Shown here piece by piece: positions 20,787-50,240 of a DNA stretch of 50,240 nt. The notes beneath the pieces were generated by a model, which saw nothing but the letters and a program-made list of their open reading frames with translations, was not told where the DNA came from and ran no database searches. Each line of letters starts with the position of its first letter. Positions within the stretch are counted from its first letter, which is position 1. This DNA comes from Omnitrophica WOR_2 bacterium RIFCSPHIGHO2_02_FULL_45_21 (lineage in GTDB: Bacteria > Omnitrophota > Gorgyraeia > Gygaellales > UBA12090): the NCBI GenBank assembly GCA_001805575.1, contig MHGN01000063.1, positions 1 to 50,240 on the forward strand, read 5' to 3'. A program made the position numbers and the translations under genes.

Positions 20787-23700
20787 CTACACCTTCACCA
20801 ACGTTACATAGGTATCGTAAAAGGCAACTGAGGCGCCTACCAAATCCTGCAGGCAGACGTTTTTCAGGTAGGGGTCAATACGCATTGCGGAGTTGGCGTG
20901 GATTCCCAGGCTGCGGCGCTTATCCGGCTTTATGTTTTTTCCATCAATGACGATCTCTCCTGCTCCATAAGCCCAGTGGCCATGGCCTAAGGAAAAGGCG
21001 GTTACCCCGGGCCTTATGCCTTCAATCACCTTAAGCTTTCCAATCATCGGCTTCTTACCTGCCGCTTTTAAATCCCAGACGCCTTCTGGATTGGTCTTAG
21101 AGACAACCTTTACCAAATCTCCGTTAGTAAGGCCTAAACGCAGGGCATCCTGGGAATTTAAAAGGATAAAATTTTCCGGAAGCAAACTCAGGAGCCAGTA
21201 ATTTGAGATGGTCCGGCTTTTACATTGCGCCATCTCGCGGTAGGTAATCAGATTCAAGCTGAATCCTTCTTTTTCATCATTAATAATGTTTCCTTGAGAA
21301 TCTGCAATTGGTAAATAGGTAGCTGACGTAGGAAAGCCCTTACCGCTAATTGAATTTTTGGCTTTGGCTAACTTCTCAATATACATATTTATCTGCTTGC
21401 CGTATTTATTCTTCAGTTGTTTGCCATCAAAGGCGGCCTCAAAATCATCAAAGCGCCCGCCGCGATTTAAGACATAAACAACTTTTCTCCATAATAGAGG
21501 GCTAACCGCAGACTGCCATTTCTCTATGCTAAAAACACTCTTTGGTAAATGCCGGCGGGCTTTTAAAAAAACCTCTAATTCCTGAGCATCGGCATCAGGG
21601 ACTGCATTTCTCCCATCATTTTCATCGCCAAAAGCAACATTTGCCGTCATCTTTAAATAATAATCTTCCGGCCTGAATAAATCTAATCCCTCTTTTAATC
21701 CGCCTTTGCCAAAGCCAGGCAAATTCATCAGCTCTGCGGCTTTTAGGAAAAATGCCTCTAGAGAAATGGGCATTCTTTCTTCAAAAACCTCAACCTCTTC
21801 AGGAATAGGCGCTACTGCCGGCTGGCGCACCGGCTGAACCTTCCATATTACCGATGGATGCGAGCCCTGAAACTCCCAGCGCTCTAAATAGGAAAGGTCA
21901 GGAATAATATAATCAGCGTAGATTGAGGACTCGCCAATAGTGATATCCGAGGCAATAAAAAGAGGAATCTTATTGATATCTGCTAAAACCTCGGCTTGAG
22001 TCTGTCCAGCGGGGAGGGAATAAGCCGGAGTTCCCATATACATAATTAAGGCCTTAATCGGATAAGGATAACCATCGCCTGCTGAAGGAAGAATCTCCTG
22101 ATAAACATCTGAAGCCATAGGAAACCAGGGACGCTTTGCCGGGTAACCGCTATAAATAGTTGTTTCTTCATATTTGACATCGTGGCGGATGATACTGATG
22201 CCAAACGGCGAAATCTTTTTGGGATGAAGTTTGGTCATATCATAGGGCTTGCCTTCCTTTTCGCCTACATTGTCATAGGCTGAAGCCTGAGACGAGCCTC
22301 CCTGCCAATCATAGTTACCGATGAGCAGATTCAAGGTATACCAAGCCAGGACATTGTAAAAACCGTTGGTATGCTGGGATACCCCGCGGTGAATATCCGC
22401 GCAGGCGCGCTTTCCGTGTGAGGTAAACTCTTCGCTCACGGCAATAATATCCTTTACCTCTAAACCACAGAGCTCTGCCCATCCATCAATGGTATATTTA
22501 AATGCCTCCTGCCTGATGATTTCTAATACTGACTTTACTTTGATTCCTGAAATTTCAGCATCAACCAATAAATCTCCCTCAGCAGGTATCTCGGCATCAT
22601 TAGGGTCAAAAGCAACGGGTTGGTTATTTTCATAACAGACAAAGTTGTCAAACTCATAGTCAATGCTCGTGCCGTCTTTTAAGCTTTTGGTTTTCCTGGC
22701 TTTCTCTATTCCTATATCTGAGGCGCGCAGGAACTCGCCCGGCTTTTCATCTTTGATTTTAACTAACCAGCAGGCATTAGTCCAGTTCGGCTCTTTATCT
22801 ATTTTTGCCGCGGCCTTGTTAGCATTAGCAAGATATTTCAAGTCGTATTTTCCGTTTTCAATCACCCAGCGGATCATTGCCAGGGCAAGGGCTGCTTCGG
22901 TGCCGGGTTTTATGGGAAGCCACTTCCAGGCCTTGGCAGCGGCCTTAGAAAGCCGAGGGTCAACCACGGCGTATTTAAGCTTTCCGGAAACCAGGCCCTG
23001 AGTAATTTTATTACTGCGATACGGAGGCCCATAATTTGCCTCAAAAGGCGATGAGCCCACAAAGAGCACAAATTCAGCCCCGGATAAATCTGCCTGCCAG
23101 TAAAATTTCTTTCCGCCTCCCCACTTTGCCTTCTTTTCTTTTTCATCAAAGTCATACTGGTCAGACATACTCTTACCGGTAAAATAGAGTGAACCCTGGC
23201 AGACGGTGGTGTGGCCGTGAAAATTAACCGAGCCGAAAGAATCCTGAATAAAGCGCTTAAAAAATTCAGAACGGCCGCTTTTTAAACGCCCGTGAATCCA
23301 GAGCAGCTGATTATTCTTCGGCCCGAAATCCGGATGCTCCGGGTCAATGAGCTTATCTAAATGCTCTTTAAATTTTTCCTTAAACTCCCGGATCTTTTCT
23401 TTCTTTTCCTCCGGCTCTTTGCTATGCCAGATTTCTTTGATATCAGAGTTCATCTCTTTGAAAACTTTCGGGTCTCGTAAAACCCAGATGTCCTTAAGGC
23501 CGCTGAGATCGCGGTTCTCTTCGCCGGGAACATTGCTAAAAAGCTTTCCTCCTTCAACAATTTCCTTTACTGCCTGCTCAAAGGGGATACTCACCCATTT
23601 GTTTTCACCGCGCTTTCCCGCGCGTTTAAGCACGCGGCGGATACGATATGGGTCATAGAGCGTCTGGATGCCAGACTGGCCTTTAGGGCAGATGTGGCCG

Positions 23701-24035
23701 TCAATCCCTGCTGATTCTGAAAGCGAAGTCTTATACGGCAGATGCGGCCACATTGTCCAGGGGCTGTAGGGATTACCGTCAATCTTTACCGCTAAACCGT
23801 CAAGAAGTTTTACCTTTAAGCTGCAGCCGGTATTACACTGCAGGCATACGCTATTAATGATATTTTCGGGTTTATTCAAAACATAATCCGCTTCTTGAAT
23901 TTTCTCTGCCTGCGCGAGAGCATTTTTTAGCAAGCCTGAATTTTCCAGCAACTCTCTGCCCAACAATGCTCCGGCCCCTGCGCCTGTAGACAGCTTGAGG
24001 AATTCTTTTCGGGATAATTGCTTTTTTTGATTCAT
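20787..24035 (-). CDS. Periplasmic Mo-bisPGD catalytic subunit, tetrathionate/arsenate/selenate reductase-like (TtrA/ArrA group)
   Basis: A 1082-residue DMSO-reductase-family protein with a Tat-like signal, LSRKEFLKLS plus a Gly/Ala-rich stretch (Arg-Lys instead of Arg-Arg). 4Fe-4S ligands: Cys64, Cys67, Cys71 and Cys116. The probable Mo ligand is Cys279 in HGHTTVCQGSLYF. Length, the Cys ligand and the FeS/NrfD partner genes fit the TtrA/ArrA/SrdA group, which reduces tetrathionate, arsenate or selenate. The substrate cannot be decided from sequence. The gene overlaps its NrfD partner by 4 nt and ends the operon. Confidence 0.8.
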   Translation of the reverse strand: MNQKKQLSRKEFLKLSTGAGAGALLGRELLENSGLLKNALAQAEKIQEADYVLNKPENIINSVCLQCNTGCSLKVKLLDGLAVKIDGNPYSPWTMWPHLPYKTSLSESAGIDGHICPKGQSGIQTLYDPYRIRRVLKRAGKRGENKWVSIPFEQAVKEIVEGGKLFSNVPGEENRDLSGLKDIWVLRDPKVFKEMNSDIKEIWHSKEPEEKKEKIREFKEKFKEHLDKLIDPEHPDFGPKNNQLLWIHGRLKSGRSEFFKRFIQDSFGSVNFHGHTTVCQGSLYFTGKSMSDQYDFDEKEKKAKWGGGKKFYWQADLSGAEFVLFVGSSPFEANYGPPYRSNKITQGLVSGKLKYAVVDPRLSKAAAKAWKWLPIKPGTEAALALAMIRWVIENGKYDLKYLANANKAAAKIDKEPNWTNACWLVKIKDEKPGEFLRASDIGIEKARKTKSLKDGTSIDYEFDNFVCYENNQPVAFDPNDAEIPAEGDLLVDAEISGIKVKSVLEIIRQEAFKYTIDGWAELCGLEVKDIIAVSEEFTSHGKRACADIHRGVSQHTNGFYNVLAWYTLNLLIGNYDWQGGSSQASAYDNVGEKEGKPYDMTKLHPKKISPFGISIIRHDVKYEETTIYSGYPAKRPWFPMASDVYQEILPSAGDGYPYPIKALIMYMGTPAYSLPAGQTQAEVLADINKIPLFIASDITIGESSIYADYIIPDLSYLERWEFQGSHPSVIWKVQPVRQPAVAPIPEEVEVFEERMPISLEAFFLKAAELMNLPGFGKGGLKEGLDLFRPEDYYLKMTANVAFGDENDGRNAVPDADAQELEVFLKARRHLPKSVFSIEKWQSAVSPLLWRKVVYVLNRGGRFDDFEAAFDGKQLKNKYGKQINMYIEKLAKAKNSISGKGFPTSATYLPIADSQGNIINDEKEGFSLNLITYREMAQCKSRTISNYWLLSLLPENFILLNSQDALRLGLTNGDLVKVVSKTNPEGVWDLKAAGKKPMIGKLKVIEGIRPGVTAFSLGHGHWAYGAGEIVIDGKNIKPDKRRSLGIHANSAMRIDPYLKNVCLQDLVGASVAFYDTYVTLVKV

Positions 24036-25144
24036 TTGAGTGTCTTAGTTTTCAATACAGGCAGGAATTTTATTCCCAGATAAAATAATCCCACTGCCAG
24101 ACTCAGAATAAATAAACTTACCTGCCACTCATGGAAACTCGGCACATACGAAAACATCAGCCGTTTCTCGATAAAGGCGCTCTCCAGGCCCTTTAATTCG
24201 GGAATCGCCAGTGCGGGAATGACAATATTAAGCCGGACGCTCATAAAGGTAAGGGCAATCAAACCCGAGGCAAAGGAAAGCTTAGTCAGGTTAGGTTTTT
24301 CCAGTAATAAAAATAAAGGTATAACACTCCCCATGCCAATATGCACCAGCCAGAAAACCCACCAAAATGGGCCGAAGAGGACTAACTTTACCGCCTCAAT
24401 ATGGTAAGCAACCTGTCCCCAGAGCGGAACTACCAGAATAGCCGCCTCGAGAGTAATGTTGACTATAAGCAGGCCCAGAATTAACCGCGGCAGAATATTA
24501 AACATCCCTTCGTCATCCTGCTTAGTGAAGCCAAAGATTATACTTACCAACGCAATTAAAGACATGCCGGATAACAACGCCTCAAATAAAAATATAATCG
24601 GAAACATCGCTGAATGCCAATAGGGCCTCGCGCCGATTACCCCAAAGAGTGAGCCGCCGCAGACCGGAATGGCGATTGCCAAGGGCAGGCCAATCATCGC
24701 CAGAATATGGGCTTTCTTTTCAGAATCCCTAAAGGTATAGATTATCTGGAGCAAAACAAGCAGGAAATAGGCGCTATAGAGCCAGACCATCCAGCTCATC
24801 ATTGAAGAAGGCGTGGGATAAACAAAGACATACCAGAATCTTTCCCAATGGCCTAAATCCAAAACAATGGTTAAAAGCGCGGAGACCAATGCCACCAGGC
24901 TGATTAATAGGCAGAGCCTTTTTAATTTTTCAAAATACTTTAATCCCAGAAAGGAAATTAAAGAGGAAAATAAGTATGCGCCGCTGGATATGCCCACTAA
25001 ATAAATATAGAGGGAAACCCATAAACCCCAGGTGACATAACTTCCTAAATTCAGTAGTTTTTTACCAACAATCAGCCGTTCTAAGACACCGATTCCTCCA
25101 AAGATAAAACATATTCCCCAGAATAGTTTATACAGCTTTTTCAT
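24032..25144 (-). CDS. NrfD-type quinone-interacting membrane subunit (TtrC/PsrC-like)
   Basis: A ~370-residue membrane protein with nine or so hydrophobic segments and NrfD-family features (LYIYLVGISSGAYLFSSLI; HWERFWYVFVYPTPSSMMSWMVW). It should exchange electrons with the quinone pool for the periplasmic Mo/FeS pair. I use the inner ATG (MKKLYKLFW), placed 1 nt after the TtrB-like stop, not the longer ORF-track start, which would overlap 44 nt of the upstream gene. Confidence 0.88.
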   Translation of the reverse strand: MKKLYKLFWGICFIFGGIGVLERLIVGKKLLNLGSYVTWGLWVSLYIYLVGISSGAYLFSSLISFLGLKYFEKLKRLCLLISLVALVSALLTIVLDLGHWERFWYVFVYPTPSSMMSWMVWLYSAYFLLVLLQIIYTFRDSEKKAHILAMIGLPLAIAIPVCGGSLFGVIGARPYWHSAMFPIIFLFEALLSGMSLIALVSIIFGFTKQDDEGMFNILPRLILGLLIVNITLEAAILVVPLWGQVAYHIEAVKLVLFGPFWWVFWLVHIGMGSVIPLFLLLEKPNLTKLSFASGLIALTFMSVRLNIVIPALAIPELKGLESAFIEKRLMFSYVPSFHEWQVSLFILSLAVGLFYLGIKFLPVLKTKTLK

Positions 25145-25145
25145 T

Positions 25146-26021
25146 TTATCCCCAGATATAATAAACCTTAGGCCTTGTCCCCAATTCACTTTTAAGCGTG
25201 GTGATATTCGGCCGGGCGATAAACTCAGAGACTAAGCTATCCCTGTCATTATTGTCGCCAAAATAAGTTGCTCCTCCGATACAAGTAGTCACGCAAGCCG
25301 GAAGCATCCCCTTCTCTATGCGATGAATACAGAAATGGCACTTTCTGGCATTACCTATCGGAGATGCCCCATGCTTACGCGGCCAAATCTTATTGTATTC
25401 AAAAGCCGGCCTTAATTCATAATCCTGCACTTTTGGCGTCCCTTGAGTATATGTTTCACCAAAATCCGCGCTGCGGGCATTATAGGGACAGGCGGTAATG
25501 CAATAGCGGCAGCCGATACAGCGCTCATAATCTACCGCCACAATCCCATCTTCTCGTTTATGGGTTGCCTTTACAGGACAGACGGGAACGCAGGGCGGCT
25601 TTTCGCATTGCATACAGGGCCGGGGAATAAACCGCCGCGTAACCTTGGGGTAGGTGCCGATTTCTTCATCCATCACCGGACGATATACCACTCCCGGCGG
25701 CAGGACATTTTCCGCTTTACAGGCGATAGTGCAGGCCGAGCAGCCAATACATCTACGTAAATCCAAAACCATAGCCCATTTTCTTTCTTTGCGCGGCTTA
25801 CTCAAGGCGCGCAACAAATCCTCCTGCATCCTCAAAAGCTCATTCTTCTGGACGAGCTCCCGAGGCAGCTTAGATAAATCTACTTCCGGAGCCTGAATTG
25901 ATTCATCTTCCCTGCTGACTGCTTTTGCTAAATTCAAAGAGCCACTGGCTAAAGCAGCCGCAGCGGCTGGCACAGCCAATTTCAGGAAATCCTTACGGCT
26001 GATTTTCTTTTTTTCGTCCAT
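25146..26021 (-). CDS. 4Fe-4S electron transfer subunit with Tat-like signal (TtrB-like)
   Basis: A ~291-residue four-cluster ferredoxin subunit. Cys groups: [49 protein letters not shown] and [20 protein letters not shown]. The N-terminus has a Tat-like signal, [10 protein letters not shown] with Arg-Lys, then an Ala-rich helix. I chose the second ATG, seven codons in, because AAAGG precedes it; the upstream ATG (26039) is possible too. It links the Mo subunit to the NrfD subunit. Confidence 0.88.
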
Positions 26022-26039
26022 AACTATAACCTTTGTCAT

Positions 26040-26153: not shown

Positions 26154-27458
26154 TTAAAATTGCGTTGCTACTATTGCCGAAAGCAAATTATCATCCGTAT
26201 CGCCGATTCCTGACCAAGAATTCTTATTCCAGTCATAGCTGAGTTTTAAAATAGTATTATCTGTCCAACGGTAACCCCCGCCCAAAGAATACCTCTCGTA
26301 CCTATTGGCAATAACTCCGTTTAAGGTAGCAGTGCCATCTCCGTTTATATCTACAAAACTGAACCTGCCCGCTGTATAAAATTTCTCGGTCCAGCTATAG
26401 GTTCCCTCTAGAAAGCCGAAGTTTCCGTCCCGTGTCCTGTTTGCTTCATCCTTAAACTGGCCGTAGGATAATCTCAAGATGGCTTTACTGTCACTAAACG
26501 CCGGAGGGTCAAGAGGTTTTTTTCCTTTACCAAAATCATAACGAGCATCCATTTCCCAGACAGTCCTATCCCAATCATTTTCTCCCGATGGACGAGTAAC
26601 TAAGCCGGCAATGGACATCTCAGCGCTGGAACTGTCTAACCTTCCGGAATTATAATAAGTTGTAGATAAGTATAACGGCTCAATTGGACTGTGATAAAGT
26701 TTCCCCATAAATGCCTTGCCCGCGGTTGAATCTGAGCCTACGCCGGAATTACCGTCGCTCACCGAAACCACCCAGCCCAATGGCTTTAGCTTTAGCTTGT
26801 CTAACTTTACCTTACCGGCAAATTCCAAACCCTCATCAACTACTGTTACTCTAGCCGCAGAATTTGAAGGCAAAACACCTTCAACTAGATTATCTGACCA
26901 GGTCTCCTCGCCAAATCCCAGCTTAAATTTTCCCAAACGAGTAGATAAACTAAACGGAGAATCTTTCAACGCCGGGATAAAATCCTTTGACTGCAGAAAG
27001 AAATAATCCAGCAAAGGGCTCTGGGCGGTGGCATTATTCAGATTAAAACGCATTACTAAGGTATTGATTGCATCCGGCGCGAAAGAAAATTGAAGTTTGG
27101 CATCGGGCATCTCAAAAGAACCGGCAGGGTATGAACCTGCTTTTCCTGAATCAAAAAAACCGAGCGCGGCCCTGCCTTTAATCTTTAGCTTGGCTAAGGT
27201 ATTGGCTAAATCTACTCTCGGCGCCTGCACAGCTTGAGATGCTTCCTTAATTTTAGCTACCTCCTCTTTGGCTTTGAGCGACTCTTCTTTTGCCTTTGCC
27301 TGATCCGCCTCTAACTTTTCAATTCTATTCAATAACTCCTGCACCTGCGTCTTTAGAACTGTTAGTTCCTCATCCCGCTGATCGGCCTTAAGAATTGGGG
27401 CATTAAATGCCAGAACCAATATGAAAACTAATATTCCCGAAAAAATCTTTTCCCTCAT
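26154..27458 (-). CDS. Outer-membrane porin with coiled-coil N-terminus
   Basis: A 434-residue protein: a signal peptide (residues 1-25, IFSGILVFILVLAFNAPILKA), a heptad-rich coiled coil (about 30-75), then alternating aromatic/polar strands of a beta-barrel ending in Phe (IVATQF), the outer-membrane signature. The coiled coil resembles that of porins with periplasmic trimer stalks. Sitting between moeA and the tetrathionate-reductase-like genes, it probably lets the enzyme's substrate into the periplasm. It overlaps the small upstream gene by ATGA. Confidence 0.78.
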   Translation of the reverse strand: MREKIFSGILVFILVLAFNAPILKADQRDEELTVLKTQVQELLNRIEKLEADQAKAKEESLKAKEEVAKIKEASQAVQAPRVDLANTLAKLKIKGRAALGFFDSGKAGSYPAGSFEMPDAKLQFSFAPDAINTLVMRFNLNNATAQSPLLDYFFLQSKDFIPALKDSPFSLSTRLGKFKLGFGEETWSDNLVEGVLPSNSAARVTVVDEGLEFAGKVKLDKLKLKPLGWVVSVSDGNSGVGSDSTAGKAFMGKLYHSPIEPLYLSTTYYNSGRLDSSSAEMSIAGLVTRPSGENDWDRTVWEMDARYDFGKGKKPLDPPAFSDSKAILRLSYGQFKDEANRTRDGNFGFLEGTYSWTEKFYTAGRFSFVDINGDGTATLNGVIANRYERYSLGGGYRWTDNTILKLSYDWNKNSWSGIGDTDDNLLSAIVATQF

Positions 27459-27651: not shown

Positions 27652-28875
27652 TTAATCCAGATAGGTTACCTGCGCCGTATCCCCCGGACGCAGGTTTTCC
27701 AGTTCCTCCGGCAGCTCCATAATCCCATTAGCCAGAACCATTGATTTCAATATTCCTGAACCCTGAGGCCCAGTCAAAGAGGCATAAAGCGTGCCGTTTT
27801 TATTTTCTAAGACTACGCGTAAGAAATAGCGCAGGCCCATTTTCTTCTGAAAATCTTCTCTAAAAATTGCAGGCAGATGAAACCTGAAAATTTCTTTTGC
27901 TCCTGTCATTTTTAAAAGCGCAGGCCGCACGAACTGCTCAAAAGTTACCATACTAGAAACCGGGTTTCCCGGAAGGCCGAAAATAGGAATTTTATCTATC
28001 ATCCCGAAAGCCAAGGGCTTGCCCGGCTTCATTGCCACCCGCCAGAATTTCATCGTAGTACCTAATTTTTTTAAGACGTCCTTAACGAAATCGTAATCCC
28101 CCACTGAAATACCACCTGAGACTAAAAGCATATCGGCACGTAAACCTTTTCTGATTTTCTGCTCTAATTCTTTTCTCTCATCCCTGGCAATCCCTAAGAA
28201 GACAGGGACAGCTCCTGCCCTCTGCGCCTGGGCATATAATGAATAGGTATTGGAATTGCGAATCTTTCCGGGAACAAGCCTTTGATTTATTTCTACCAAC
28301 TCATCCCCGGTAGCCAAAATTGCCGCTTTCGGCTTTCTGTATACCTTTATTTTGCTAACCCCTAAAGATGCCAACATTCCAATATATCCTGATTTTAAGA
28401 TGTCGCCTTTTCTAATGACCACTTCGCCTTTTTTTACATCCTCTCCCGCATAGCGCACATTCTCACCCTTCTTCACTTCACGAAATATTCTTACAAATTC
28501 TTCTTTTCTTTTACTTGACACTTTTTGACTGTCTTCTGCCATCACCACGCTATCCGCGCCTTTGGGAATAGGGGCCCCGGTCATAATCCGTATCGCCTGA
28601 TTATTCCCTATCTTCTTTGCAGTAGTATATCCGGCAGCTAAATCCGAAATTACTTCAAAAACCCTGGGATTTTCACGCGCTGCGCCGGCGGAATCCTCCG
28701 CTCTTACGGCAAAGCCATCCATTGCGCTATTATCAAAAGGCGGAATATTCTCTTTGGCTCTTATATCAACAGCAGAAACTCTGCCTGAGCAGGAATCAAG
28801 ATTAATCAGCTCGGTTTCTTTTACGGGCGAGATATTTTTAAGGATAATTTTTCTGGCTTGGCTTACGTTTATCAT
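27652..28875 (-). CDS. moeA: Molybdopterin molybdenumtransferase MoeA
   Basis: A 407-residue protein with the full MoeA domain order. Blocks: IPPFDNSAMDGFAV, MTGAPIPKGADSVVMAED, ATGDELVEI, SGGISVGDYDFVKDVL and PVSSMVTFEQFVRP. It inserts molybdate into adenylated molybdopterin made by MogA. It leads the operon containing the porin and the tetrathionate-reductase-like complex. The ATG has no visible Shine-Dalgarno (aaaattaaATG); a -10-like TCTAAT lies about 10 nt upstream, so a leaderless transcript is possible. Confidence 0.95.
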   Translation of the reverse strand: MINVSQARKIILKNISPVKETELINLDSCSGRVSAVDIRAKENIPPFDNSAMDGFAVRAEDSAGAARENPRVFEVISDLAAGYTTAKKIGNNQAIRIMTGAPIPKGADSVVMAEDSQKVSSKRKEEFVRIFREVKKGENVRYAGEDVKKGEVVIRKGDILKSGYIGMLASLGVSKIKVYRKPKAAILATGDELVEINQRLVPGKIRNSNTYSLYAQAQRAGAVPVFLGIARDERKELEQKIRKGLRADMLLVSGGISVGDYDFVKDVLKKLGTTMKFWRVAMKPGKPLAFGMIDKIPIFGLPGNPVSSMVTFEQFVRPALLKMTGAKEIFRFHLPAIFREDFQKKMGLRYFLRVVLENKNGTLYASLTGPQGSGILKSMVLANGIMELPEELENLRPGDTAQVTYLD

Positions 28876-28910
28876 TTAATTTTGATTAGAGGGTTTTTTC
28901 TTCCATACTT

Positions 28911-28926
28911 TGTGAAATATTTCACA
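28911..28926. promoter_or_regulatory. CRP/FNR-family operator-like palindrome upstream of moeA
   Basis: TGTGAAATATTTCACA is a perfect 16-bp palindrome and fits TGTGA-N6-TCACA, the CRP-type consensus. Its centre is 43 bp before the moeA ATG. The same core lies upstream of the nxrA-like gene at 38606-38621. Confidence 0.7.
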
Positions 28927-28937
28927 TTAGAGCTGTA

Positions 28938-28962
28938 ATAAAAAAGTGCATTTCTTCTGCAC
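28938..28962 (-). terminator. Hairpin with T-run: terminator of the ahb genes or leader attenuator of moeA
   Basis: Minus strand GTGCA-gaagaaa-TGCAC followed by TTTTTTAT. It ends the siroheme decarboxylase unit, but also lies just downstream of the 28986-29014 promoter, so it could attenuate that transcript. Confidence 0.55.
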
Positions 28963-28985
28963 ATCTGCTTCTATTTACAAAAGGA

Positions 28986-29014
28986 ATAATACCAAAGAAA
29001 ATAGCGCTTGTCAA
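28986..29014 (-). promoter_or_regulatory. Strong sigma70-type promoter toward moeA
   Basis: Minus strand TTGACA (29014-29009), 17-nt spacer, TATTAT (28991-28986). The predicted start is near 28979, about 104 nt before the moeA ATG, with the hairpin and the TGTGA palindrome in the leader. Confidence 0.65.
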
Positions 29015-29057: not shown

Positions 29058-29477
29058 TCACCCCGTCCCATTGTCCTTTTCCTTTGGATTAAAAGATGTC
29101 TTTTTGAATTCTTTGAGTGTGTTTAGTACCTTATAGGCGCAGTCGTCCATCAATTTAGAAAGCCCGGTTATCAACGCGTTAAGTTCTCTTTGGCTTTTGG
29201 CGTGAAGCATTGTGTAGAAACCGAAGGGCCAGAGGCGGCTGGATTTGCGTAGATAAATATGGCTTATCTGGTCTTTATTCCTGAGCTGACAGGAGAGTTT
29301 CCGGCTAAGAGATGATTTTTCCCAGGCAATAAGGGCATTATGGCTAAATCCTAACTTTTGATGGTTGACAATGGCGGTGAACCTGCGGATTTTCCCCAGA
29401 CGCAAATCCTCTTTTATTTTCTTTAACCGGTCTTTGCTAAAAGGCCGGGATGTTATTTCTATGTCCATGATGCTCAT
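29058..29477 (-). CDS. Siroheme decarboxylase subunit, N-terminally shortened (AhbA/AhbB, NirDLGH family)
   Basis: About 139 residues from the ATG at 29477, which has an excellent AGGAG site 5 nt upstream; the ORF-track TTG start is less likely. The C-terminal AsnC-like domain is clear: IRRFTAIVNHQKLGFSHNALIAWE and WPFGFYTMLHA. The usual N-terminal helix-turn-helix is shortened: only ~14 residues separate SRPF from the LRLGKIRRF block, where relatives have ~24. It should pair with the next gene to remove acetate carboxyls of siroheme on the alternative heme route. Confidence 0.75.
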   Translation of the reverse strand: MSIMDIEITSRPFSKDRLKKIKEDLRLGKIRRFTAIVNHQKLGFSHNALIAWEKSSLSRKLSCQLRNKDQISHIYLRKSSRLWPFGFYTMLHAKSQRELNALITGLSKLMDDCAYKVLNTLKEFKKTSFNPKEKDNGTG

Positions 29478-29550
29478 CTTGACTCCTGACACATCCTGCC
29501 TGCTCAAGCAGACAAGGATATCTGATACTAAAAATATGGCCTATCCCGAA

Positions 29551-30021
29551 TTATGGTTTAAATACGGTTTTAATCTTTATCATCTTAATCGTGGGCAAAT
29601 TAACCACTGCTTTTATGCCGCTTCTCTCTTTTATGGTTCGGATGATTTCATCGCTCCTTCTCTGGGTGGGGCAAATCAGGGTAAACCAGAGGTTGTAGAT
29701 ATCGTCTTTTCTTAAATAGTTATGGGTTACTTCCTTAAAACTATTTATTATCTCAACTATCTTTTTTAATTTACCCTCCGGCGCCGATATACCGATTAAA
29801 GTACGTTTAAAGCCGCTGGCGTCAGGATTATAAATAGGCCCAATGCGCTTGATAATACCCAATGACTTAAGGCGCTTAATTCTGGAAATAACTTCTTCTT
29901 CGGATAAGCCAAGCTCCTTTCCTAACTTTTGAAAAGGCCTTAAAACCAGAGGAAAGCTCTCCTGCAAAAGAATAACGAGCTTTTTATCCAGTTCATCTAA
30001 TTTTGAGATTAAATCAGCCAC
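29551..30021 (-). CDS. Siroheme decarboxylase subunit (AhbA/AhbB, NirDLGH family)
   Basis: A 156-residue Lrp/AsnC-like protein with the family signatures LLQESFPLVLRPFQKLGKELGLSEEEVISRIKRL, GIIKRIGPIYNPDASGF and VTHNYLRKDDIYNLWFTL. In this family the Lrp fold is an enzyme, not a regulator: it decarboxylates siroheme to didecarboxysiroheme for heme b or heme d1. The start is GTG with a good GAGGTGA site 7 nt upstream. It is followed by the shorter second subunit. The NxrC-like heme b subunit nearby would need the product. Confidence 0.85.
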   Translation of the reverse strand: MADLISKLDELDKKLVILLQESFPLVLRPFQKLGKELGLSEEEVISRIKRLKSLGIIKRIGPIYNPDASGFKRTLIGISAPEGKLKKIVEIINSFKEVTHNYLRKDDIYNLWFTLICPTQRRSDEIIRTIKERSGIKAVVNLPTIKMIKIKTVFKP

Positions 30022-30204: not shown

Positions 30205-30603
30205 TTATTCTACGAGCAGCTTGCCGTTCATCTGCATATGCTCCTCAGAGCACCAGGCCGTGCACATAAAAGGAAAGCTTCCTCTTTTGTCAGCGACAAA
30301 GGTAACCTCAACCACCTCCCCGGCTTTTATCTCGCTCGAGCTCGGTTCAGTATCAAAATCCGGGAGCGCAAAACCGTGGCTTACGGTCTCGATGTTGCGG
30401 ATGTGCAGTTTTATCTTTTTTCCATAAGGGACTTTGAGCTCTTTAGGATACCAATTCCCGTTATTCGGCGAGCGGGCGATAAGCTCAACAAAAAAATATT
30501 CCGCACTCCGCCTGCGGTAAGACTCATAGGAAAAAACTGCCGCAATCGTTCCGATGGTAACCAGTATCATTAGTGTCACTGCGATGAATTCGTTTCTTTT
30601 CAT
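30205..30603 (-). CDS. Membrane-anchored CuA-type cupredoxin
   Basis: A 132-residue protein: an N-terminal membrane anchor (residues 7-25) and a cupredoxin domain. The CuA ligand set is complete: His in VSHGF, then CTAWCSEEHMQM (C-x3-C-x3-H-x2-M), as in cytochrome oxidase subunit II and N2O reductase. There is no oxidase subunit I or NosZ gene nearby, so it is likely an electron relay for the NXR-like complex. It is the last gene of the operon, 4 nt after the polyferredoxin. Confidence 0.85.
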   Translation of the reverse strand: MKRNEFIAVTLMILVTIGTIAAVFSYESYRRRSAEYFFVELIARSPNNGNWYPKELKVPYGKKIKLHIRNIETVSHGFALPDFDTEPSSSEIKAGEVVEVTFVADKRGSFPFMCTAWCSEEHMQMNGKLLVE

Positions 30604-30607: not shown

Positions 30608-32020
30608 TTAACCTATATACAGCCATAAAAATAATAATGTGGTTAAGGTCAAAAAGGTGAAGATGGGAATCCAGCCCCGCTTTGCCTCCTGAAGTCCGGG
30701 AAAGGTCTGCTTAGAAAGCCTGAACCCGTAGGCAAGCGAGAAAAGATAAAAGACGAGCAGGGTTATGCCCTGCAGATACCCTAAGGAGTGGGTAAAAACC
30801 GGCGTCCAGGGAACGTTCTTAGTTCCAAAGAGATTCCATCCCCAGGAGAACGGGTCAGATAAAATATGTAAAATATAGCTCCCATTGGGAAGAACTATCC
30901 CAAAGCTAAAGGCAATCCAGGCGCCTAAGCCAATAGGAATAAGCGTGTAGGAGAAATTTATAAAGAGCTTTTTCAAAGATACTTCTTTATTGCCGCTAAA
31001 AACTTTGGAGAGATAACTGAAGACAAAGAAAATACCCGGTATTACTAAAAGACAGAGAACGGTATGAAAAGTGATAAAGGTAAGATACCCCCTTAGGGTA
31101 GATGCCCTGACCATATCTTTAAGCACTCCCCAGGGCCCCTGCATACTCAGGAAAAATACCATTGCAATACCGAGCATAATGAATGACTTCCAGGCCTCAT
31201 CCAGACCCCTTTTATCATCCACCAATAAATCTGCTCCCGGCGGCCTGAGGTTAAAAGCCATATTGTCATATGGACAGCTCTTAAAACACTCTAAGCACAT
31301 CCCGCAGTAAGTATTCTTTCTAAAGCTAAAAGGGGCAAGGAGCCAGGGACAGCCATAGCCCTTTTCATTTCCCAAATAGCAGGTCTTAAGTTTATGCTCT
31401 TTACAGACCTGCGGGTCTTTGCTTCTAATCTCAGTCGTGGCAAACTGCGAATACAGCCCCTGGAAGCCGGATACCGGACAGACATACAAACAGAAACTGC
31501 GCTTTTCAAATATTAAGCCCATAATAAAGGCGATAAGAATGATTAATCCTAGAAGGATAAAAGTTGCCAGGGGCCTGACGGTAAAAAATCCGGAGAAAAA
31601 TGTGGTTACCAAGAAGAAGACATTCATTATCCACATATTCTTAAGCGCCTTTGGCCATTTTAGATTTAGCCCGCCCAATTTTCCCATATTCACTCCAAAG
31701 AGCGCTCCCCTTTGCGCCCATTCGCCGAATATCGGAAAAGGGCACATCAGACACCAGGCGCGGGATAAAACCGGAACCAGGACAAACATCAGCATTACCC
31801 ACCAGAGTATCCAGACAATCATAATACCGAAATTATAGTTTCCGGCTGAATAACCGCCTAAGAATCCGGCAAGCAATATAATCACAAAGATAAAGAGATT
31901 AAAGAGAATGGGCAACAGGGGAAACCAGCGGGATTTAAAAAGCGCCCTCACGGGCCTAAACTTGGTGAGTTCGAAGCGCCAGTCCAGGTCAACTAATCCG
32001 AATAACTTATCCTTGCTCAT
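30608..32020 (-). CDS. Membrane 4Fe-4S polyferredoxin (NapH/NosR/CcoG-like)
   Basis: A ~470-residue membrane protein with several helices and Cys motifs WCLMCPFP, FCLYVCPVSGFQ and a ferredoxin site TYCGMCLECFKSCP. Such proteins move electrons between quinol and periplasmic redox partners. It lies between two CuA cupredoxins, so an electron path quinone pool / polyferredoxin / CuA / Mo enzyme is plausible. The ORF-track start is TTG; I prefer the ATG seven codons later, which overlaps the upstream cupredoxin gene by 14 nt. Confidence 0.82.
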   Translation of the reverse strand: MSKDKLFGLVDLDWRFELTKFRPVRALFKSRWFPLLPILFNLFIFVIILLAGFLGGYSAGNYNFGIMIVWILWWVMLMFVLVPVLSRAWCLMCPFPIFGEWAQRGALFGVNMGKLGGLNLKWPKALKNMWIMNVFFLVTTFFSGFFTVRPLATFILLGLIILIAFIMGLIFEKRSFCLYVCPVSGFQGLYSQFATTEIRSKDPQVCKEHKLKTCYLGNEKGYGCPWLLAPFSFRKNTYCGMCLECFKSCPYDNMAFNLRPPGADLLVDDKRGLDEAWKSFIMLGIAMVFFLSMQGPWGVLKDMVRASTLRGYLTFITFHTVLCLLVIPGIFFVFSYLSKVFSGNKEVSLKKLFINFSYTLIPIGLGAWIAFSFGIVLPNGSYILHILSDPFSWGWNLFGTKNVPWTPVFTHSLGYLQGITLLVFYLFSLAYGFRLSKQTFPGLQEAKRGWIPIFTFLTLTTLLFLWLYIG

Positions 32021-32456
32021 TTTCTTTTTTTCGGAAAACAATAACTAAGCTTCCCAGTCCGATTAGAATAACCGCTGCGGCGGACATACTGAACCTGGAA
32101 TTCGGCTTGACCACTAAATATCCCACCATATAGGGATGAAACTCGCCGCAGGTAACCGAACAGCGAAAGCAAAATCTTCCCGGCTTATCCGCTGTAAATT
32201 TTAAAGAGCCGTCCTGCCCGGGATGGGCTGAAGTGCTGACGGCATATCCGTCTACAAAAAAACCGTGATGCACATCCTCGCTGATAAGTCGAATCCTCAC
32301 CAGGTCGCCTTTGTTAACTTCTATAATGTTAGGCGTATAAGAGAATTTTTTTGCCTTAACCTCAAAAAACTTCTCCGCTTGAGCAAAACTGCTCCCCGCC
32401 ATAAACCATAAACTACAAACTATAAACCAACAAAACACTTGACACTTGATTTTCAT
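32007..32456 (-). CDS. Periplasmic CuA-type cupredoxin with C-terminal membrane anchor
   Basis: About 149 residues from the ATG that overlaps the NxrC-like stop (ATGA). A signal peptide, then a cupredoxin domain with His in DVHHGF and CSVTCGEFHPYM (C-x3-C-x3-H-x2-M), the CuA ligand set; a C-terminal hydrophobic helix ends in RKKENEQ. The signal-peptide region is written by near-repeats of 'ataaac'-type words in the DNA. It is a second CuA carrier, distinct from the one at 30205. Confidence 0.85.
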   Translation of the reverse strand: MKIKCQVFCWFIVCSLWFMAGSSFAQAEKFFEVKAKKFSYTPNIIEVNKGDLVRIRLISEDVHHGFFVDGYAVSTSAHPGQDGSLKFTADKPGRFCFRCSVTCGEFHPYMVGYLVVKPNSRFSMSAAAVILIGLGSLVIVFRKKENEQG

Positions 32457-33340
32457 TTTATCTGAAGCTCCACCCAATCCGAAATGGACTTCCTCCCGCC
32501 CCGGTCGCCACTGGCGCCGTTCCAGACACTAAAGGCACAGAGTTTATTCTTCTCTGCTTGCCCCGCCGTTGGCGGGGCCTGTTCTAAATTAGCATCAACT
32601 TCCGGATCAGTGATAGCGATAGCGCGTTTAAATACCACCTGCCAGGTATTATCCGACCAAAAGCCTCTTCCCTGCACATTCTGAAGCTCTTTGGGGGTAA
32701 GAGTACCTACCCTAATGGCAATCAGGTCATTCACTGCCGATTTAGAAATGTCTTTAGAAACTACAAAAATCTCCTTTTCTTCAAACGGGTAATGATAATC
32801 CGCATAAACTTTTGTCTGCATCAGCTCATCGGTTGCGCCGGCCTTTTCCTGGCTCAACCAATACTCCCTATCCCGGCTTGCCTTCCAGTACCAGATATTG
32901 GACTTATGCATAAAACCCATCATAATAGTCGAGGCAGGTATGCCTTCTCCCATGGGGAACATCACCGCGCAGCCATCGGAAAAGGTATTGATTCCCGCAT
33001 CCCTATCCTCTGTATCGTCCTTCCAGCTGATGTAGAAATAGATATCTTTTTTATTGTGAAAGGCGCTTACTCTAAGCGGCGAAACCAAACTCTTGCCCCA
33101 GGGAAGCACAGTAACTTGCTGCATCAGCTCTATTTCTTCTCTGGGAAGGGATTGCCATATATCAGATACGCTAGCGGAAACATCGATTTCCTTATCTAGA
33201 AATTGAACCTCTAAAGTTACCTTCTTTGGCTTTTCAACTCTAACCGGAACTCCCCGAGAATGCCTTATTCCTATATAAACCAGCGCCGCGAACCCAATTA
33301 CCAATGCTATAGATATTAAGATAACGGTGGATTTTTTCAT
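32453..33340 (-). CDS. Heme b-binding gamma subunit, ethylbenzene-dehydrogenase type (NxrC-like)
   Basis: A 295-residue protein: an N-terminal membrane anchor or signal (residues 5-25) and one EB_dh-type heme-binding beta-sandwich. Blocks: DGCAVMFPMGEG, MMGFMHKSNIWYWKA and a C-terminal ASGDRGGRKSISDWVEL, where Met and Lys residues of the family ligate heme b. It carries electrons away from or to the FeS subunit in type II DMSO-reductase-family enzymes. Positioned after the TorD chaperone as in other such operons. Confidence 0.85.
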   Translation of the reverse strand: MKKSTVILISIALVIGFAALVYIGIRHSRGVPVRVEKPKKVTLEVQFLDKEIDVSASVSDIWQSLPREEIELMQQVTVLPWGKSLVSPLRVSAFHNKKDIYFYISWKDDTEDRDAGINTFSDGCAVMFPMGEGIPASTIMMGFMHKSNIWYWKASRDREYWLSQEKAGATDELMQTKVYADYHYPFEEKEIFVVSKDISKSAVNDLIAIRVGTLTPKELQNVQGRGFWSDNTWQVVFKRAIAITDPEVDANLEQAPPTAGQAEKNKLCAFSVWNGASGDRGGRKSISDWVELQIK

Positions 33341-33444: not shown

Positions 33445-33999
33445 TCAAGCGTTTACGCGAGGAATGTCAGATGCAATGAATTTTAAACATTCCTGCGCCG
33501 CTTGCGCATAAAAGCTGTCTTTATTCTTTGAAATTATCGCTCCGCTTATCTTCAGGAGCCCGGGATATAAATATTGCGCAAGAAATTTCTTCTGGGCCTC
33601 AACACAAATAGCAACTTTCTCCTTGTCCTCAAATTCCATAGCTCGTTGTGCCTTATAGACAAGATAATGCATGAATTCCAACTGGCAAGCCAAAGAATCT
33701 GCCCTGTCTTTATCCGGCTCTAAACCAAAGGCGCGATAAAAACCCATAATATCCGCTAAATGATTTACCCTTTGGAATTCGTTCTCCGCTAAATGCTCTG
33801 CCGCATAGAGCCAGATTGCTTCTAGCCGAAATAAGCGGTCGTATTCCTCAACTAATTTTCCCTTCTCAGAAGCTAATTCGGGAAAGAAAGCAAAAAAATC
33901 ATCTTGCGGATAAGAAAAGGCGACCGCGAATTTCTTATACTCAATTAACCTTAAGCTTTCCTCAGGTAACGCTGAATCTACGCACATTTCTTTCTTCAT
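33445..33999 (-). CDS. TorD/NarJ-family molybdoenzyme chaperone
   Basis: A ~184-residue all-helical protein. The block EYDRLFRLE near the middle of the N-terminal half and the HYLVYKAQRAM and QKKFLAQYLYPGL stretches are typical of TorD/DmsD chaperones. These bind the Tat signal and help insert the Mo cofactor before export. The ATG at 33999 has AAGGA about 6 nt upstream; the ORF-track TTG is one codon earlier. It overlaps the NxrB-like gene by 38 nt. Its client should be the NxrA-like protein. Confidence 0.8.
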   Translation of the reverse strand: MKKEMCVDSALPEESLRLIEYKKFAVAFSYPQDDFFAFFPELASEKGKLVEEYDRLFRLEAIWLYAAEHLAENEFQRVNHLADIMGFYRAFGLEPDKDRADSLACQLEFMHYLVYKAQRAMEFEDKEKVAICVEAQKKFLAQYLYPGLLKISGAIISKNKDSFYAQAAQECLKFIASDIPRVNA

Positions 34000-35122
34000 C
34001 AAATTCCTTGCGGATATAAATCGGCTCTTTCAGGGGAACCTTTACAATTTCCTTGCCCTGTTCATCATAGCCGGTAACAGAACCTTTCTCTATATCGCCT
34101 TCAACCTTAAAAGAGCGGGTAATCTTATCGGTAGAGCCCATGAGCATTAAAATCCCAATCAGCTTTTTATCCAGAGAGGCGCGGCGGTAATATTCTACCG
34201 CCTTCAGCGCCCCGGGGCCAAAGAGCTGAAGATTAAATTTATCCGGAACATTGATAGGAGGAATGTAATAGACATTAGGCTCTAAGCCGAATTGAGGATA
34301 CAAAGGAAGGGCAACTTTTTTAATATGGATAAGATAATCAAAGGGGTTATCTTCCCTTGCCTCATCGTATCTGCTCTTAAAACCAAAGAGCCGGATTTTG
34401 CCGATGCAATTGATCACGCACTGGGTCTGAATTCTTTCTTTGGCCGGGCTGTTTCCTTCTACACCCGGATAGCAGGCAATACATTTTTCCGATTTTCCGG
34501 TTAATTCCCTGAAAAAGGTTTTCTTATACGGACAGGCTTTTATACATTCCTGATATCCGCGGCATCTTTTCTGGTCAATCAAAACAATTCCGTCTTCTTC
34601 TCTCTTATAGATTGCCTTTCTGGAACAAGCGGCGACACAGGCCGGATAGGTGCAGTGATTACAGATTCTCTGCAAATAAAACATCCAGGGCTGATGGGGA
34701 ATCTTGATATAATCCTTATCCTTGATTGCGCTGCTTACCTCATCCTCTCCGAGATTGGGATAGAGATAATCATTTTCCTCGGGGTGCCAGCCTAAAACCT
34801 CTTCACCAAAGCCGGCTGATTCAAATATGGTTTTACCTTTGTACTTCCAGCCGCTCCAATCTTGCGGCCCTAACTTTTCCAAAAGCCGTACATCCCAGCC
34901 CAGAGGATAAAATCCCCAGGGCTTGGTCTCAACGTTGTTCCACCACATATATTCCTGGCCCTTGCCGGCGGTCCAGGCATTCTTACAGGCAAAGGTGCAG
35001 GTTTGGCAGGCAATGCATTTATTGGTATCAAAAATCCAGGCCGCCTGCTTTTTGGGTCGGCTCTCGGGATATTTATACTCCATTTTCCGATTGAGCTGCC
35101 AGTTATAAACCTTGTGGCTCAT
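33962..35122 (-). CDS. 4Fe-4S beta subunit, nitrite oxidoreductase/nitrate reductase type (NxrB-like)
   Basis: A 386-residue four-cluster subunit. The first Cys group KCIACQTCTFACKNAW is followed by KGQEYMWWNNVETKPWGFYPLGWD, a stretch I associate with the NxrB of Nitrospira and anammox bacteria. The other groups are CNHCTYPACVAAC, CRGYQECIKACP and CIACYPG...CVINCIG; a Tyr stands where the second group-three Cys would be (CRGYQEC), a known NarH/NxrB-type feature. No signal peptide, so it would be co-exported with the Mo subunit. ATGA overlap with the NxrA-like gene. Confidence 0.85.
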   Translation of the reverse strand: MSHKVYNWQLNRKMEYKYPESRPKKQAAWIFDTNKCIACQTCTFACKNAWTAGKGQEYMWWNNVETKPWGFYPLGWDVRLLEKLGPQDWSGWKYKGKTIFESAGFGEEVLGWHPEENDYLYPNLGEDEVSSAIKDKDYIKIPHQPWMFYLQRICNHCTYPACVAACSRKAIYKREEDGIVLIDQKRCRGYQECIKACPYKKTFFRELTGKSEKCIACYPGVEGNSPAKERIQTQCVINCIGKIRLFGFKSRYDEAREDNPFDYLIHIKKVALPLYPQFGLEPNVYYIPPINVPDKFNLQLFGPGALKAVEYYRRASLDKKLIGILMLMGSTDKITRSFKVEGDIEKGSVTGYDEQGKEIVKVPLKEPIYIRKEFDEERNVRRFSVT

Positions 35123-38100
35123 TTAACGAATTCTCCTCCCAGGAACTTCTTCATTGCCACATTCTCATACGACGGCCTAAAGCCCATTTTTGCCGGGCGC
35201 CAGAGTTTATTGCCATTAGTTCCCCCGTCTTCAGCTTTACTGACTTTGACAAATGACTCTTTCGGAGCGCCGGTGGTGCAGTGAACATCCGGAGCAAATC
35301 CTTTTCCAATCACCTGGCCAAAATACTCTTTTCTGGCTAAAGAATCGGTCATCAACGTAGGCCTAAGCCAGGCGCGGGTTGTGGACTGGTGCGAGCCATA
35401 CCTGAACATTGCCTGATAGCCGGTGCGGGAGTTTCTGGCTAATTTATCCGGGTTGGTTTCATGGCCTTCAACCGAACCATAAGTTGCCACATACATATTA
35501 AACCAGGAGCGGGCAACACCGCGCATGATTCCTAAATAATAACGGCAGCGCATCATTGCCCGATGCACCTTATAATCTTCGCCTTTTTTCTGCCAGCCGC
35601 GAAAAGGCCTATCCTCCGGGTCAGCATCTACCCAGACGTAATCTCCGTCTTCAATGCCTAACTCCTTGGCGTCAGCCGGATTGATATCAACATAGCCCTC
35701 GCCAACCCATGGTGAACGGTTATCCTTTCTATAGGGATCGCCAAAGGGGCCAAACCATAAAGAAAGCAGGTCAATATCTACCGGGGTGGTATGCGCGCCA
35801 TGGCGGTATTTGGGAGTTATATAAATGAGAGTAAAGCCGTCTTTTCTGCGGGGATGAACGGTCTTGGTAACCTCTCGCGGGCTGATTACCACATTACGCA
35901 CCTGGCGCACTTCTACCGACAGGTCATCTTTGGATAAACCGTAGCTTTCCGGGCCTTTAGGCCTGATTAAATCCTTAGCCCCGCAGACAATGGTATTGGG
36001 CTCATAAAAGGTAGCGTCCACCGGTTCGCGGTGCACCGGGATATTTTCGCCATGCTCAATAAATTCGTCTTCATCGCGATAAAATTCCAAACGGCCTGAC
36101 TTTGTATAATGCGGCTTATTTTCATTGCTCTGCTCCCAGCCCATAATCTTAGGATAGGTGCGGGTCATCAAAAGCGCCGGGATTCCTTCTTTGGCATTCT
36201 TTTCTAACTCTTCAATGTTGTATCCTTTCAGGGCGGTGGAAGCATCAATGATCCTCTGTAAATAAACCTCTAACTTATTGTCGTAGACAAACTTCCAATA
36301 ATCCTCAAATCTGGTATCCCCGGTTTCTTTGCTCAATGCCTTGGCCACTCCGGCAAACGTCTCTATATCTGCCCGGGTATCATGCAATCTCTCTAAAGGC
36401 GTGCGGGGATAAATCTGTAAAAATGGGTTGGTCACTGCCGCGGTCATATCCGGATATTTAAATTCTGCCCAGGAATCCACGGCAAAAACCACATCCGCGT
36501 ATTCGCAGGAAGCAGACCACCACCACTCATTCACTATCACGCATTCTATCCTGGGAAGAGTATTCACCACAAAATCGTGGTGCCACTTGAGGTTGCCTAA
36601 GATAGAATTGGAATTGCCGAACCAGAGAAATTTTGTCGGCGTGGAGATATGGGTTTTTCCGGTAAAAAGCTTATTGCCTACCCGCAAGGGCCTGTCGCCA
36701 TAGTTATAATAATGCGCGGATTCCATTTTGTAATATGCTTTCGCGCGCACCGGCTTTTGAGGGTCTAATTCAATATCAAAAGGGTCCTCGGTAATGTAAG
36801 TCGGCAGGCCGTTAAAATAGGCGCCGCGGTAATTGCCGGCAAAACTGCCGATATTGCCGCCATGATAACCGATATTTTTTGTCAAGGCGCAGACCAAAAA
36901 TATAGCCCGGTCTTTTAAGTCGTTGTTGAAAAAGTGATTCGGCCCCATTCCTACAGCGATAAGCACCTTGGATTTATTCGCGGCAATTTCTCTGGCTAAG
37001 CTTACTACCGCCTCTTTGCTGATATGGCAGATATCGCTGACCACCTCAGGGGTAAAATGCGAAGCATGCTCTTTCATTAAATCAAATACTGTTCTGACCT
37101 TTACCTTCTTGCCGTCAATGGTATCAACCTCAAACTCACCCTCTAAGGCAAAATCTTTGACTGCGCCGTAATCATCGCGGCTGATAACTACCACTTCATT
37201 CTTCTTCCCATCCCAGGCAACAAAATCGCTCCATTCATTGCGCAGTTTCTCTGTTACAATCTGTAAGTTCTGTTTTATCGACGGCGGGGGTTTTTCTCCT
37301 TCTTTAAGCACCTGGGTATTTTTTAATTCTTTTGGCTGGTAATCTTTAATCATATCCTGGGGTTTCAATAACTTCAGGGTATCCATCCTTACTAAAAGCG
37401 GTAAATCAGTTTGACCCTTCGCAAACTCATCATCGTAAAGCTTCTCCCCGATGATAAGATTCGCTATTCCTAAAGCAAGGGCGGTATCACTTCCCGGACG
37501 GATTAAAATAACCTCTTCTGCCTTATGGGAGGTTGCCTGGTATTCGCAGGCAATTGTGATAACCCTTGTTCCTTTGGCCCTGGCTTCGGATAGCCAGTGC
37601 GCGTCGGGCATTTTGGTGGCAATCCAGTTCATTCCCCAGTTGATGGCAACCTTGCAGTTTTCTACCGTGGCTAAGTCAAAATCGATGGTCTGCTGTCCGC
37701 AGACCATCGGATGTCCTGGCGGCAGGTCGGTATGCCAGGAATAGTTATCCCATCCTCTTGCCCCCAAGGCGTCGTTCTTATCCACACCCCTGATTTTTTC
37801 ATCTAAAAGGGCGGCAGAATTAGCGAAACGATAAAAACCAAAAAGGCGGGTTGCCCCTAAAAGGGGCATTCCGCCTCTGAATTTTAATACTTGAGTTCCC
37901 GCGCCCTTAGTTGCCTCAACCATTGCCTCATCATAGCCCTGGGCCTTGAGCAATTCTTTTCCCTTATCGCCAGAGTAAGTTGTGGCAATGTTAATCATGC
38001 TCTGCGCAACAATCTGAGATGCCTCTTCAAAGGAAACCCTGACAAAAGGCTCTTTCCCGCGGTTAAGATATTCGCCGGGTATACTGCCGTTTGGATTTCT

Positions 38101-38544: not shown

Positions 38545-38599
38545 TCCTCTTTCGTAGCTGCAGAAATTATCTTTATGATGACAAATTTGGCGCACTTGT

Positions 38600-38627
38600 C
38601 CTAAATGTGAATTATTTCACATTTAGG
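38600..38627. promoter_or_regulatory. CRP/FNR-family operator-like palindrome upstream of the NxrA-like gene
   Basis: A 28-bp perfect palindrome (12-bp arms, CCTAAATGTGAA and its complement, 4-bp centre) that contains TGTGA-N6-TCACA at 38606-38621, the same core found upstream of moeA. It lies 56-83 bp before the ATG. In RNA it could also form a hairpin. Confidence 0.7.
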
Positions 38628-38640
38628 GGAATAAAAATTA

Positions 38641-38673
38641 AATTGCCTGCAGTAACTCTACTGTAAAGCAATT
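38641..38673 (-). terminator. Leader hairpin followed by T-rich stretch (possible attenuator)
   Basis: Minus strand AATTGC-ttta-CAGTA-gagt-TACTG-cag-GCAATT, then TAATTTTTATT. It begins about 5 nt after the predicted start of the 38685-38712 promoter and precedes the palindrome. Similar in position to the hairpin at 28938-28962. Confidence 0.45.
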
Positions 38674-38684: not shown

Positions 38685-38712
38685 ATTATACCGAAAGAAA
38701 AAATCTTGTCAA
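38685..38712 (-). promoter_or_regulatory. Consensus sigma70 promoter for the NXR-like operon
   Basis: Minus strand TTGACA (38712-38707), 16-nt spacer, TATAAT (38690-38685): both hexamers perfect. Expected start near 38678, giving a leader of about 134 nt before the ATG. Confidence 0.7.
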
Positions 38713-47184: not shown

Positions 47185-47186
47185 AT

Positions 47187-47795: not shown

Positions 47796-47798
47796 CTT

Positions 47799-48428: not shown

Positions 48429-48436
48429 TCCTTATC

Positions 48437-49012: not shown

Positions 49013-49022
49013 TTTTCCTTAT

Positions 49023-50099: not shown

Positions 50100-50240
50100 T
50101 ACACCTCTTTTGCTCCCCGGTATTCTTCAATGCCTCTTATATTATCAAAGTAGGGCAGGATACACTGGTTGCGGTCACAGCCCTGGATAGTCAACTTTTC
50201 CTGGCCTTCCTTAATATATTTAGCTAAGGGAATCTTGGAG
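50096..50240 (-). CDS. C-terminal end of the gene upstream of nqrB (nqrA by position)
   Basis: The minus strand from the window edge reads an open frame of 47 codons ending QGCDRNQCILPYFDNIRG...AKEVY and TGA (50098-50096). Not in the ORF track, as no start lies within the window. Position immediately before nqrB makes nqrA likely, but this tail does not look like the NqrA C-terminus I know, so identity stays open. Confidence 0.45.
   Translation of the reverse strand, partial: SKIPLAKYIKEGQEKLTIQGCDRNQCILPYFDNIRGIEEYRGAKEVY

Follow-up and report, generated by a model that had tools for sequence, protein, structure and literature searches.

Repressors of the Rex family leave their DNA when NADH is high. 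The consensus of Staphylococcus aureus Rex, at a verified site, is TTGTGAAW4TTCACAA; the sites of this organism lie within promoters or a few base pairs from them and have been read as blocking initiation (PMC2883068), and autoregulation of rex is known from Streptomyces coelicolor, as cited in that article. Other bacterial repressors (PurR, CodY, CcpA and LacI) can bind downstream of the transcription start and stop the elongating polymerase; release is then achieved by Mfd and possibly by Rho, and the available parts of the two reports (PMC10310618, PMC4132739) describe no release element in register with the operator. The eukaryotic RNA polymerase I (Pol I) terminator combines a DNA-bound protein (Reb1, Nsi1 or TTF1) with a T-rich element and a hairpin. 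Pol I halts within the T-rich stretch, 15 bp short of the roadblock, and the upstream hairpin drives release, which in vitro required the hairpin (PMC12366685). Classical leader attenuators carry a terminator-like hairpin and a U-run between promoter and gene.

The leaders of the Omnitrophota described here share with Gram-positive Rex regulons the operator sequence, the regulator family and targets in energy metabolism and electron transfer. In contrast to S. aureus, the sites lie mostly at +24 to +72 (from predicted starts) behind a T-tract, and the targets include moeA and an nxrA-like operon. As in the bacterial roadblocks, the repressor would stop an elongating polymerase from a position downstream of the start. 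The three parts of the Pol I terminator recur in the same order, and T residues at −17 to −9 from the operator would fit the anatomy of a stop 15 bp before the protein site; however, the proteins and polymerases are unrelated, and the Pol I device acts constitutively at gene ends, whereas the one described here stands in 5′ leaders and would presumably be set by NADH/NAD+. Hairpin and U-run are arranged as in classical attenuators, but the switch is presumably a protein bound to the DNA further downstream, and neither an antiterminator fold nor a leader peptide was found.

The window (the whole stretch of 50,240 nucleotides that was analysed) is contig C63 of G000, a metagenome-assembled genome of 1.31 Mb in 75 contigs that is ~90% (89.9%) complete and whose closest named relatives are Omnitrophota. 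Some gene names were taken from scans, the remainder from reading the translations.

28986–29014, minus: moeA promoter TTGACA-N17-TATTAT (TTGACA 29014–29009, TATTAT 28991–28986)
28946–28962, minus: moeA leader hairpin GTGCA-N7-TGCAC, weak alone (−5.0 kcal/mol), with strong hairpins at the same place in relatives
28937–28945, minus: moeA T-tract TTTTTTATT, register −18 to −10 relative to the operator
28910–28927, minus: predicted Rex operator of moeA, ATGTGAAATATTTCACAA, about +53 to +70 (palindrome 28926–28911)
27652–28875, minus: moeA, ATG at 28875
26154–27458, co-directional with moeA: porin-like gene
25146–26039, co-directional with moeA: TtrB-like gene
24032–25189, same run: NrfD/TtrC-like gene
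20787–24035, same run: TtrA-like molybdoenzyme gene
38685–38712, minus: promoter of the nxrA-like operon, TTGACA-N16-TATAAT (TTGACA 38712–38707, TATAAT 38690–38685)
38641–38673, minus: nxrA leader hairpin (−10 to −12 kcal/mol)
38630–38640, minus: nxrA T-rich tract TAATTTTTATT
38605–38622, minus: predicted Rex operator of the nxrA-like operon, ATGTGAAATAATTCACAT, about +57 to +74 (palindrome 38621–38606)
35119–38544, minus: nxrA/narG-like alpha subunit of the type II DMSO-reductase family, with a Tat signal (twin-arginine ATG at ~38544)
33962–35122: beta subunit
33445–34002: delta-type chaperone
32453–33340: ethylbenzene-dehydrogenase-type gamma subunit
32007–32477 and 30205–30603: cupredoxins
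30608–32041: Fe-S membrane protein
29551–30021: ahbA
29058–29507: ahbB
46096–50240, minus: rnf operon (F/B-like, A, E, G, D and the 3′ end of rnfC)
~51645–51662, extended coordinates on contig C2: rnfC operator TTGTGAAATTATTAACAA, in a leader with TTGACA-N18-TATAAT and a T-tract

The succession of promoter, hairpin, T-run, palindrome and ATG that the original prediction had described for the moeA and nxrA-like leaders was confirmed for both, on the minus strand, as was the position of the palindromes downstream of near-consensus promoters (judged from predicted starts). The 1158-residue open reading frame called for the nxrA-like alpha subunit begins at a GTG at 38595. Siroheme decarboxylase-like genes (ahbA and ahbB, 29058–30021) close the nxrA-like operon region directly before the moeA leader. 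The window ends (50202–50240) with 39 bases identical to positions 1–39 of C2; from this overlap, and from the last rnfC codons, which continue in the window, C2 contains the first part of the rnf operon whose remainder lies at the right edge of the window. The rnfC leader lies 1.4 kb beyond the end of the window, and the original prediction therefore does not include it. No Rfam family matches the window.

Each palindrome has the form TGTGAA-N4-TTCACA, which is that of the Rex operator. Compared with TTGTGAA-N4-TTCACAA (14 specified bases), the moeA, nxrA and rnfC sites have one, two and one mismatches, respectively, and all spacers consist of A and T only. Perfect TGTGA-N6-TCACA palindromes occur exactly twice in the window and three times in the genome, the third inside pyrF; a search with the longer consensus yielded the additional site TTGTGAAATTATTAACAA, 50 bp before rnfC. 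A matrix derived from 19 sites in relatives, with the G000 sites excluded, was scored over the whole G000 genome, and moeA (26.4 bits), nxrA (24.6 bits) and rnfC (23.7 bits) took ranks 1, 2 and 3. The next-best site (16.8 bits) lies inside coding sequence; all three top sites are intergenic despite ~92% coding sequence. The pattern is thus not random, and the common control of moeA and the molybdoenzyme operons that had been proposed is supported. The identification of the palindromes as Rex operators is strongly supported. The palindrome was also considered as an RNA hairpin signal; this was rejected, as the rnfC variant breaks RNA pairing yet keeps the Rex half-site, and as operators also occur outside transcribed regions (nuoA). 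Near-matches at C28:19992, C63:15594 and C32:22249 were discarded as G000 operators, all being inside coding sequence. The sequence GTGTGAAACTTTTCACTA at 15593–15610 of the window, inside mobA, is identical in G002, which belongs to another genus; it may reflect coding conservation or be a weak operator that serves the focA/fdh genes behind it.

Sites of this type precede moeA in five genomes (G000, G003, G005, G006 and G008), and rnfC and the nxrA-like gene in five genomes each (G000, G003, G005, G006 and G007 in both cases); the 18-mer operator of rnfC is identical in G000, G003, G005 and G006. Further sites stand before nuoA (4 genomes), hydrogenase-type genes, hypA, a fixC-like gene and, in G004, G255, G279 and G378, rex itself. 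The nxrA homologues with 54–79% identity, mostly from outside the Omnitrophota, have no site in the upstream 500 bp, with the exception of two Omnitrophota loci (L060 and L061); the homologues from outside the phylum, which reach 78% identity, all lack it. The alpha subunit (35119–38595) is 77–78% identical to proteins of Methanoperedens, Hakubella and Chloroflexi, a degree of similarity that suggests that the gene moved from one phylum to another; only the Omnitrophota copies carry the Rex leader.

Rex is encoded in 7 of 8 genomes of the same genus or family (G001 of the same genus and 6 of 7 other genomes of the family), while no rex gene is present in the 89.9% complete G000 assembly. The G001 protein rates as a genuine, complete Rex: it scores 232.7 bits with NF003995 (cut-off 126), matches Rex chains of the PDB over its whole length (E 1e-33 to 1e-40), and contains both the winged helix and the NAD-binding domain. 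In G001 the gene order is ddl-like genes, rex, M48 peptidase, HAD, PAC2, M20 peptidase and era. Contig C6 of G000 begins at era and is then collinear with G001, and rex with its flanking genes up to era has no counterpart in the G000 assembly, except that the ddl-like genes have distant paralogues there. Most likely, then, rex of G000 falls in the assembly gap at the end of C6; a true absence of Rex from the lineage was rejected on this synteny, with C6 starting at era and the neighbouring block missing. Elsewhere, rex lies directly upstream of rnfC (G025) or of a site-bearing hydrogenase-type gene (G037); G033 has a Rex-type site, and a search with PF06971 did not find Rex in that genome.

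The relation between T-tract and operator was analysed in 19 leaders of the family in which the operator follows the (predicted) promoter; they represent four or five gene types. The order in the moeA, rnfC, nxrA and hydrogenase/hypA leaders is promoter, T-tract, operator, start codon, and the predicted starts place the operators at +29 to +72. Relative to the operator, the best 9-nt window of T begins at −17.0 (SD 0.5); relative to the predicted start site, it begins at +32 (SD 13.2). The 19 leaders are incompletely independent, since common ancestry links many that belong to one gene type. At positions −17 to −9 from the operator each column has 68–95% T, G and C are almost absent, and both borders are sharp. 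A comparable T-run was found in only 2 of 27 other strong-promoter leaders of G000. The moeA start codon of G003, G006 and G008 lies 6–9 nt behind the operator, so that the transcript must begin before the operator. Where the operator lies across or ahead of the promoter (nuoA, fixC, rex of G004 and hyd of G006), there are 1–5 T in the same place and no T-tract (p=4e-5); at nuoA and at rex of G004 (L106, L111, L119, L125) the operator stands directly upstream of the −35 box.

The rule extends to much of the phylum. A search of 384 Omnitrophota genomes for promoter plus palindrome, without requirement for T, gave 25 matches (0 in the reversed control); a T-tract was present in 18/18 Rex-type operators lying past +22, at +24 or beyond, and in 0/5 at +9 to +15 (p=3e-5; p=4e-4 if the outliers L302 and L323 are included). 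These two outliers, far matches from distant Omnitrophota, share GGAGTTACTGGGTCACGTATCCTGTGACT(G/A)ATGTCACACGGGGCATTGACCCAGGG behind promoter-like sequence, a GC-rich, non-Rex element without T-tract. With longer gaps the T-tract was present in 11/11 matches, several of which carry hairpins; the rex leaders of G279 and G378 are among them. Controls for the searches without a T requirement gave 0 matches. A search for the T-tract arrangement gave 58 genomes versus 5 control matches; the exact TTGACA/TATAAT pattern was too strict over the phylum (1 match). Orthologous hydrogenase leaders (L101, L112 and L118) form a natural insertion/deletion pair that differs by one segment: in G006 the segment with the T-tract is missing and the operator lies at +8, and with the segment it lies at +29 (G003) and +35 (G008).

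Hairpins are usual in the moeA, rnfC and nxrA leaders and mostly end 15–20 nt (~18) before the operator, with sequences unrelated between genera. Against dinucleotide shuffles their combined p was 9e-8, and as a set they show a hairpin with a U-tract directly behind it. The nxrA hairpin of G000 is significant individually (RNA fold z −2.7; p<=0.01). That of moeA is not (5 bp, −5.0 kcal/mol, p 0.14; RNA fold z −0.4), and its case rests on the conserved position and the strong hairpins of relatives (−17 to −21 kcal/mol); the rnfC leader of G000 has the T-tract and no convincing hairpin. Neither of these two G000 leaders qualifies individually as an intrinsic terminator. The hydrogenase/hypA leaders likewise have a T-tract and no convincing hairpin, and those of hydrogenase type with the operator at +24 to +31 have the T-tract 8–18 nt after the start, which leaves no room for one. 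The hairpin is therefore optional at best. In the rnfC leader of G005 (L092), the operator stands between CTTGAGGT and ACCTCAAG, which could pair with each other; the resulting fold may substitute for the usual hairpin.

From the arrangement of these elements the following mechanism is proposed. RNA polymerase would start at a strong constitutive promoter 29–72 bp upstream of the operator. At low NADH, Rex with bound NAD+ would occupy the operator and act as a roadblock, and the RNA–DNA hybrid of the stalled polymerase would lie over the 9-nt T-tract, 17 to 9 bp before the operator. Pairs of rU with dA are weak. The T-tract of the moeA, rnfC and nxrA leaders usually adjoins a hairpin of the terminator type, and the complex would be released so that polymerases do not queue. 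Upon build-up of NADH, Rex would leave, polymerase would pass the weak terminator, and the moeA/TtrA-like, nxrA-like and Rnf electron-transfer operons would be expressed. The T-tract is present only where an elongating polymerase would meet Rex, and its place tracks Rex and not the start site, as would be expected of a roadblock-coupled release element. Among studied systems the Pol I terminator comes closest. We consider this reading as a whole, with Rex operators, a roadblock on the T-tract, release and hence an NADH-gated terminator, to be probable. Repression by a roadblock or by attenuation in place of classical activation, as originally proposed, finds support, judged from predicted starts; the two had been offered as alternatives, and the fixed spacing of T-tract and operator suggests that they are one device.

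A plain roadblock or early-elongation block by Rex, with T-tract and hairpin only tuning pausing or backtracking and with release by Mfd or Rho, has known precedents in LacI, CcpA, CodY and PurR, and Mfd accounts for about 90% of release at LacI (PMC4132739, PMC10310618). As mfd is present in G000, another release route exists. Such a block would leave the T-tract without a reason to be locked to the operator within 0.5 nt, to be missing where the operator lies outside the elongation range, and to be abutted by hairpins, an arrangement that a neutral spacer would not retain; we regard it as rather unlikely. The same constancy of register would be expected if the T-tract were a DNA-shape element that aids Rex binding and has no role in elongation, but operators upstream of or overlapping the promoter need binding equally and have no T-tract, which makes this explanation very improbable. 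Hairpin and T-run could also be the terminator of the upstream operon, incidentally adjacent to the operator: the upstream genes are co-directional in 18/19 leaders, and some hairpins might for that reason serve the upstream operon as well. As the main explanation it is very unlikely, because the promoter precedes the hairpin, whose own gene would then be terminated, because the distance from T-tract to operator is constant over genes, genera and upstream neighbours, and because hydrogenase-type leaders (+24 to +31) carry the T-tract without room for a hairpin.

The original prediction had assigned the palindromes to a regulator of the CRP/FNR family, and TGTGA-N6-TCACA is indeed the consensus of CRP and of Desulfovibrio HcpR (PMC1274295). 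G000 encodes one CRP/FNR protein, the only one above the cut-off, beside a hemerythrin protein (L019). Its recognition helix reads APETLSR, with Pro where CRP has Arg180; according to Rodionov et al., Arg180 is associated with G at position 3 of the site, and HcpR proteins that have Ser or Pro at this residue are associated with TTGAC sites (PMC1274295), so that this protein is predicted to prefer TTGA-type half-sites and is an unlikely reader of TGTGA. Moreover, the rnfC half-site TTGTTAA fits Rex and breaks TGTGA, the sites of relatives lie upstream of or adjoin rex and occur on nuo, rnf and hydrogenase genes, and the G000 operators, at about +42 to +57 (predicted), are not placed as upstream activator sites. 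Control by a CRP-, FNR- or HcpR-like protein is thus highly unlikely, and this part of the prediction gives way to Rex. At L019 the CRP/FNR gene (1489–2163, minus) is followed by a hemerythrin/RIC-like gene (613–1404, minus); its product is probably an HcpR1-type nitrosative-stress regulator with TTGA-type sites.

With the reading of the leaders as NADH-gated terminators, a broader interpretation has about an even chance of being correct: that Rex serves, at several operons and in much of the phylum, as a ligand-gated termination factor that is bound to DNA at an operator set in register with a T-tract of 9 nt, often with a hairpin, and that the device is a convergent counterpart of the Pol I terminator that reads NADH/NAD+. 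In the literature on Rex and roadblocks, and on roadblocks and intrinsic termination, no release element in register with an operator was found; the coverage was partial and is no proof of novelty. Within that coverage, the conserved leader architecture is new to the literature. If the interpretation is true, a metabolite-sensing repressor acts on termination and not on initiation, which would offer a testable bacterial case, and the spacing rule can be searched for with other repressors. For the Omnitrophota, an uncultured phylum, it would tie the nxrA-like enzyme, the TtrA-like enzyme with moeA, and Rnf to one redox signal. The direction in which the nxrA-like enzyme works is ambiguous from sequence, and the control by Rex would favour a role as electron sink: the three operons would be made when NADH piles up and electrons need an outlet.
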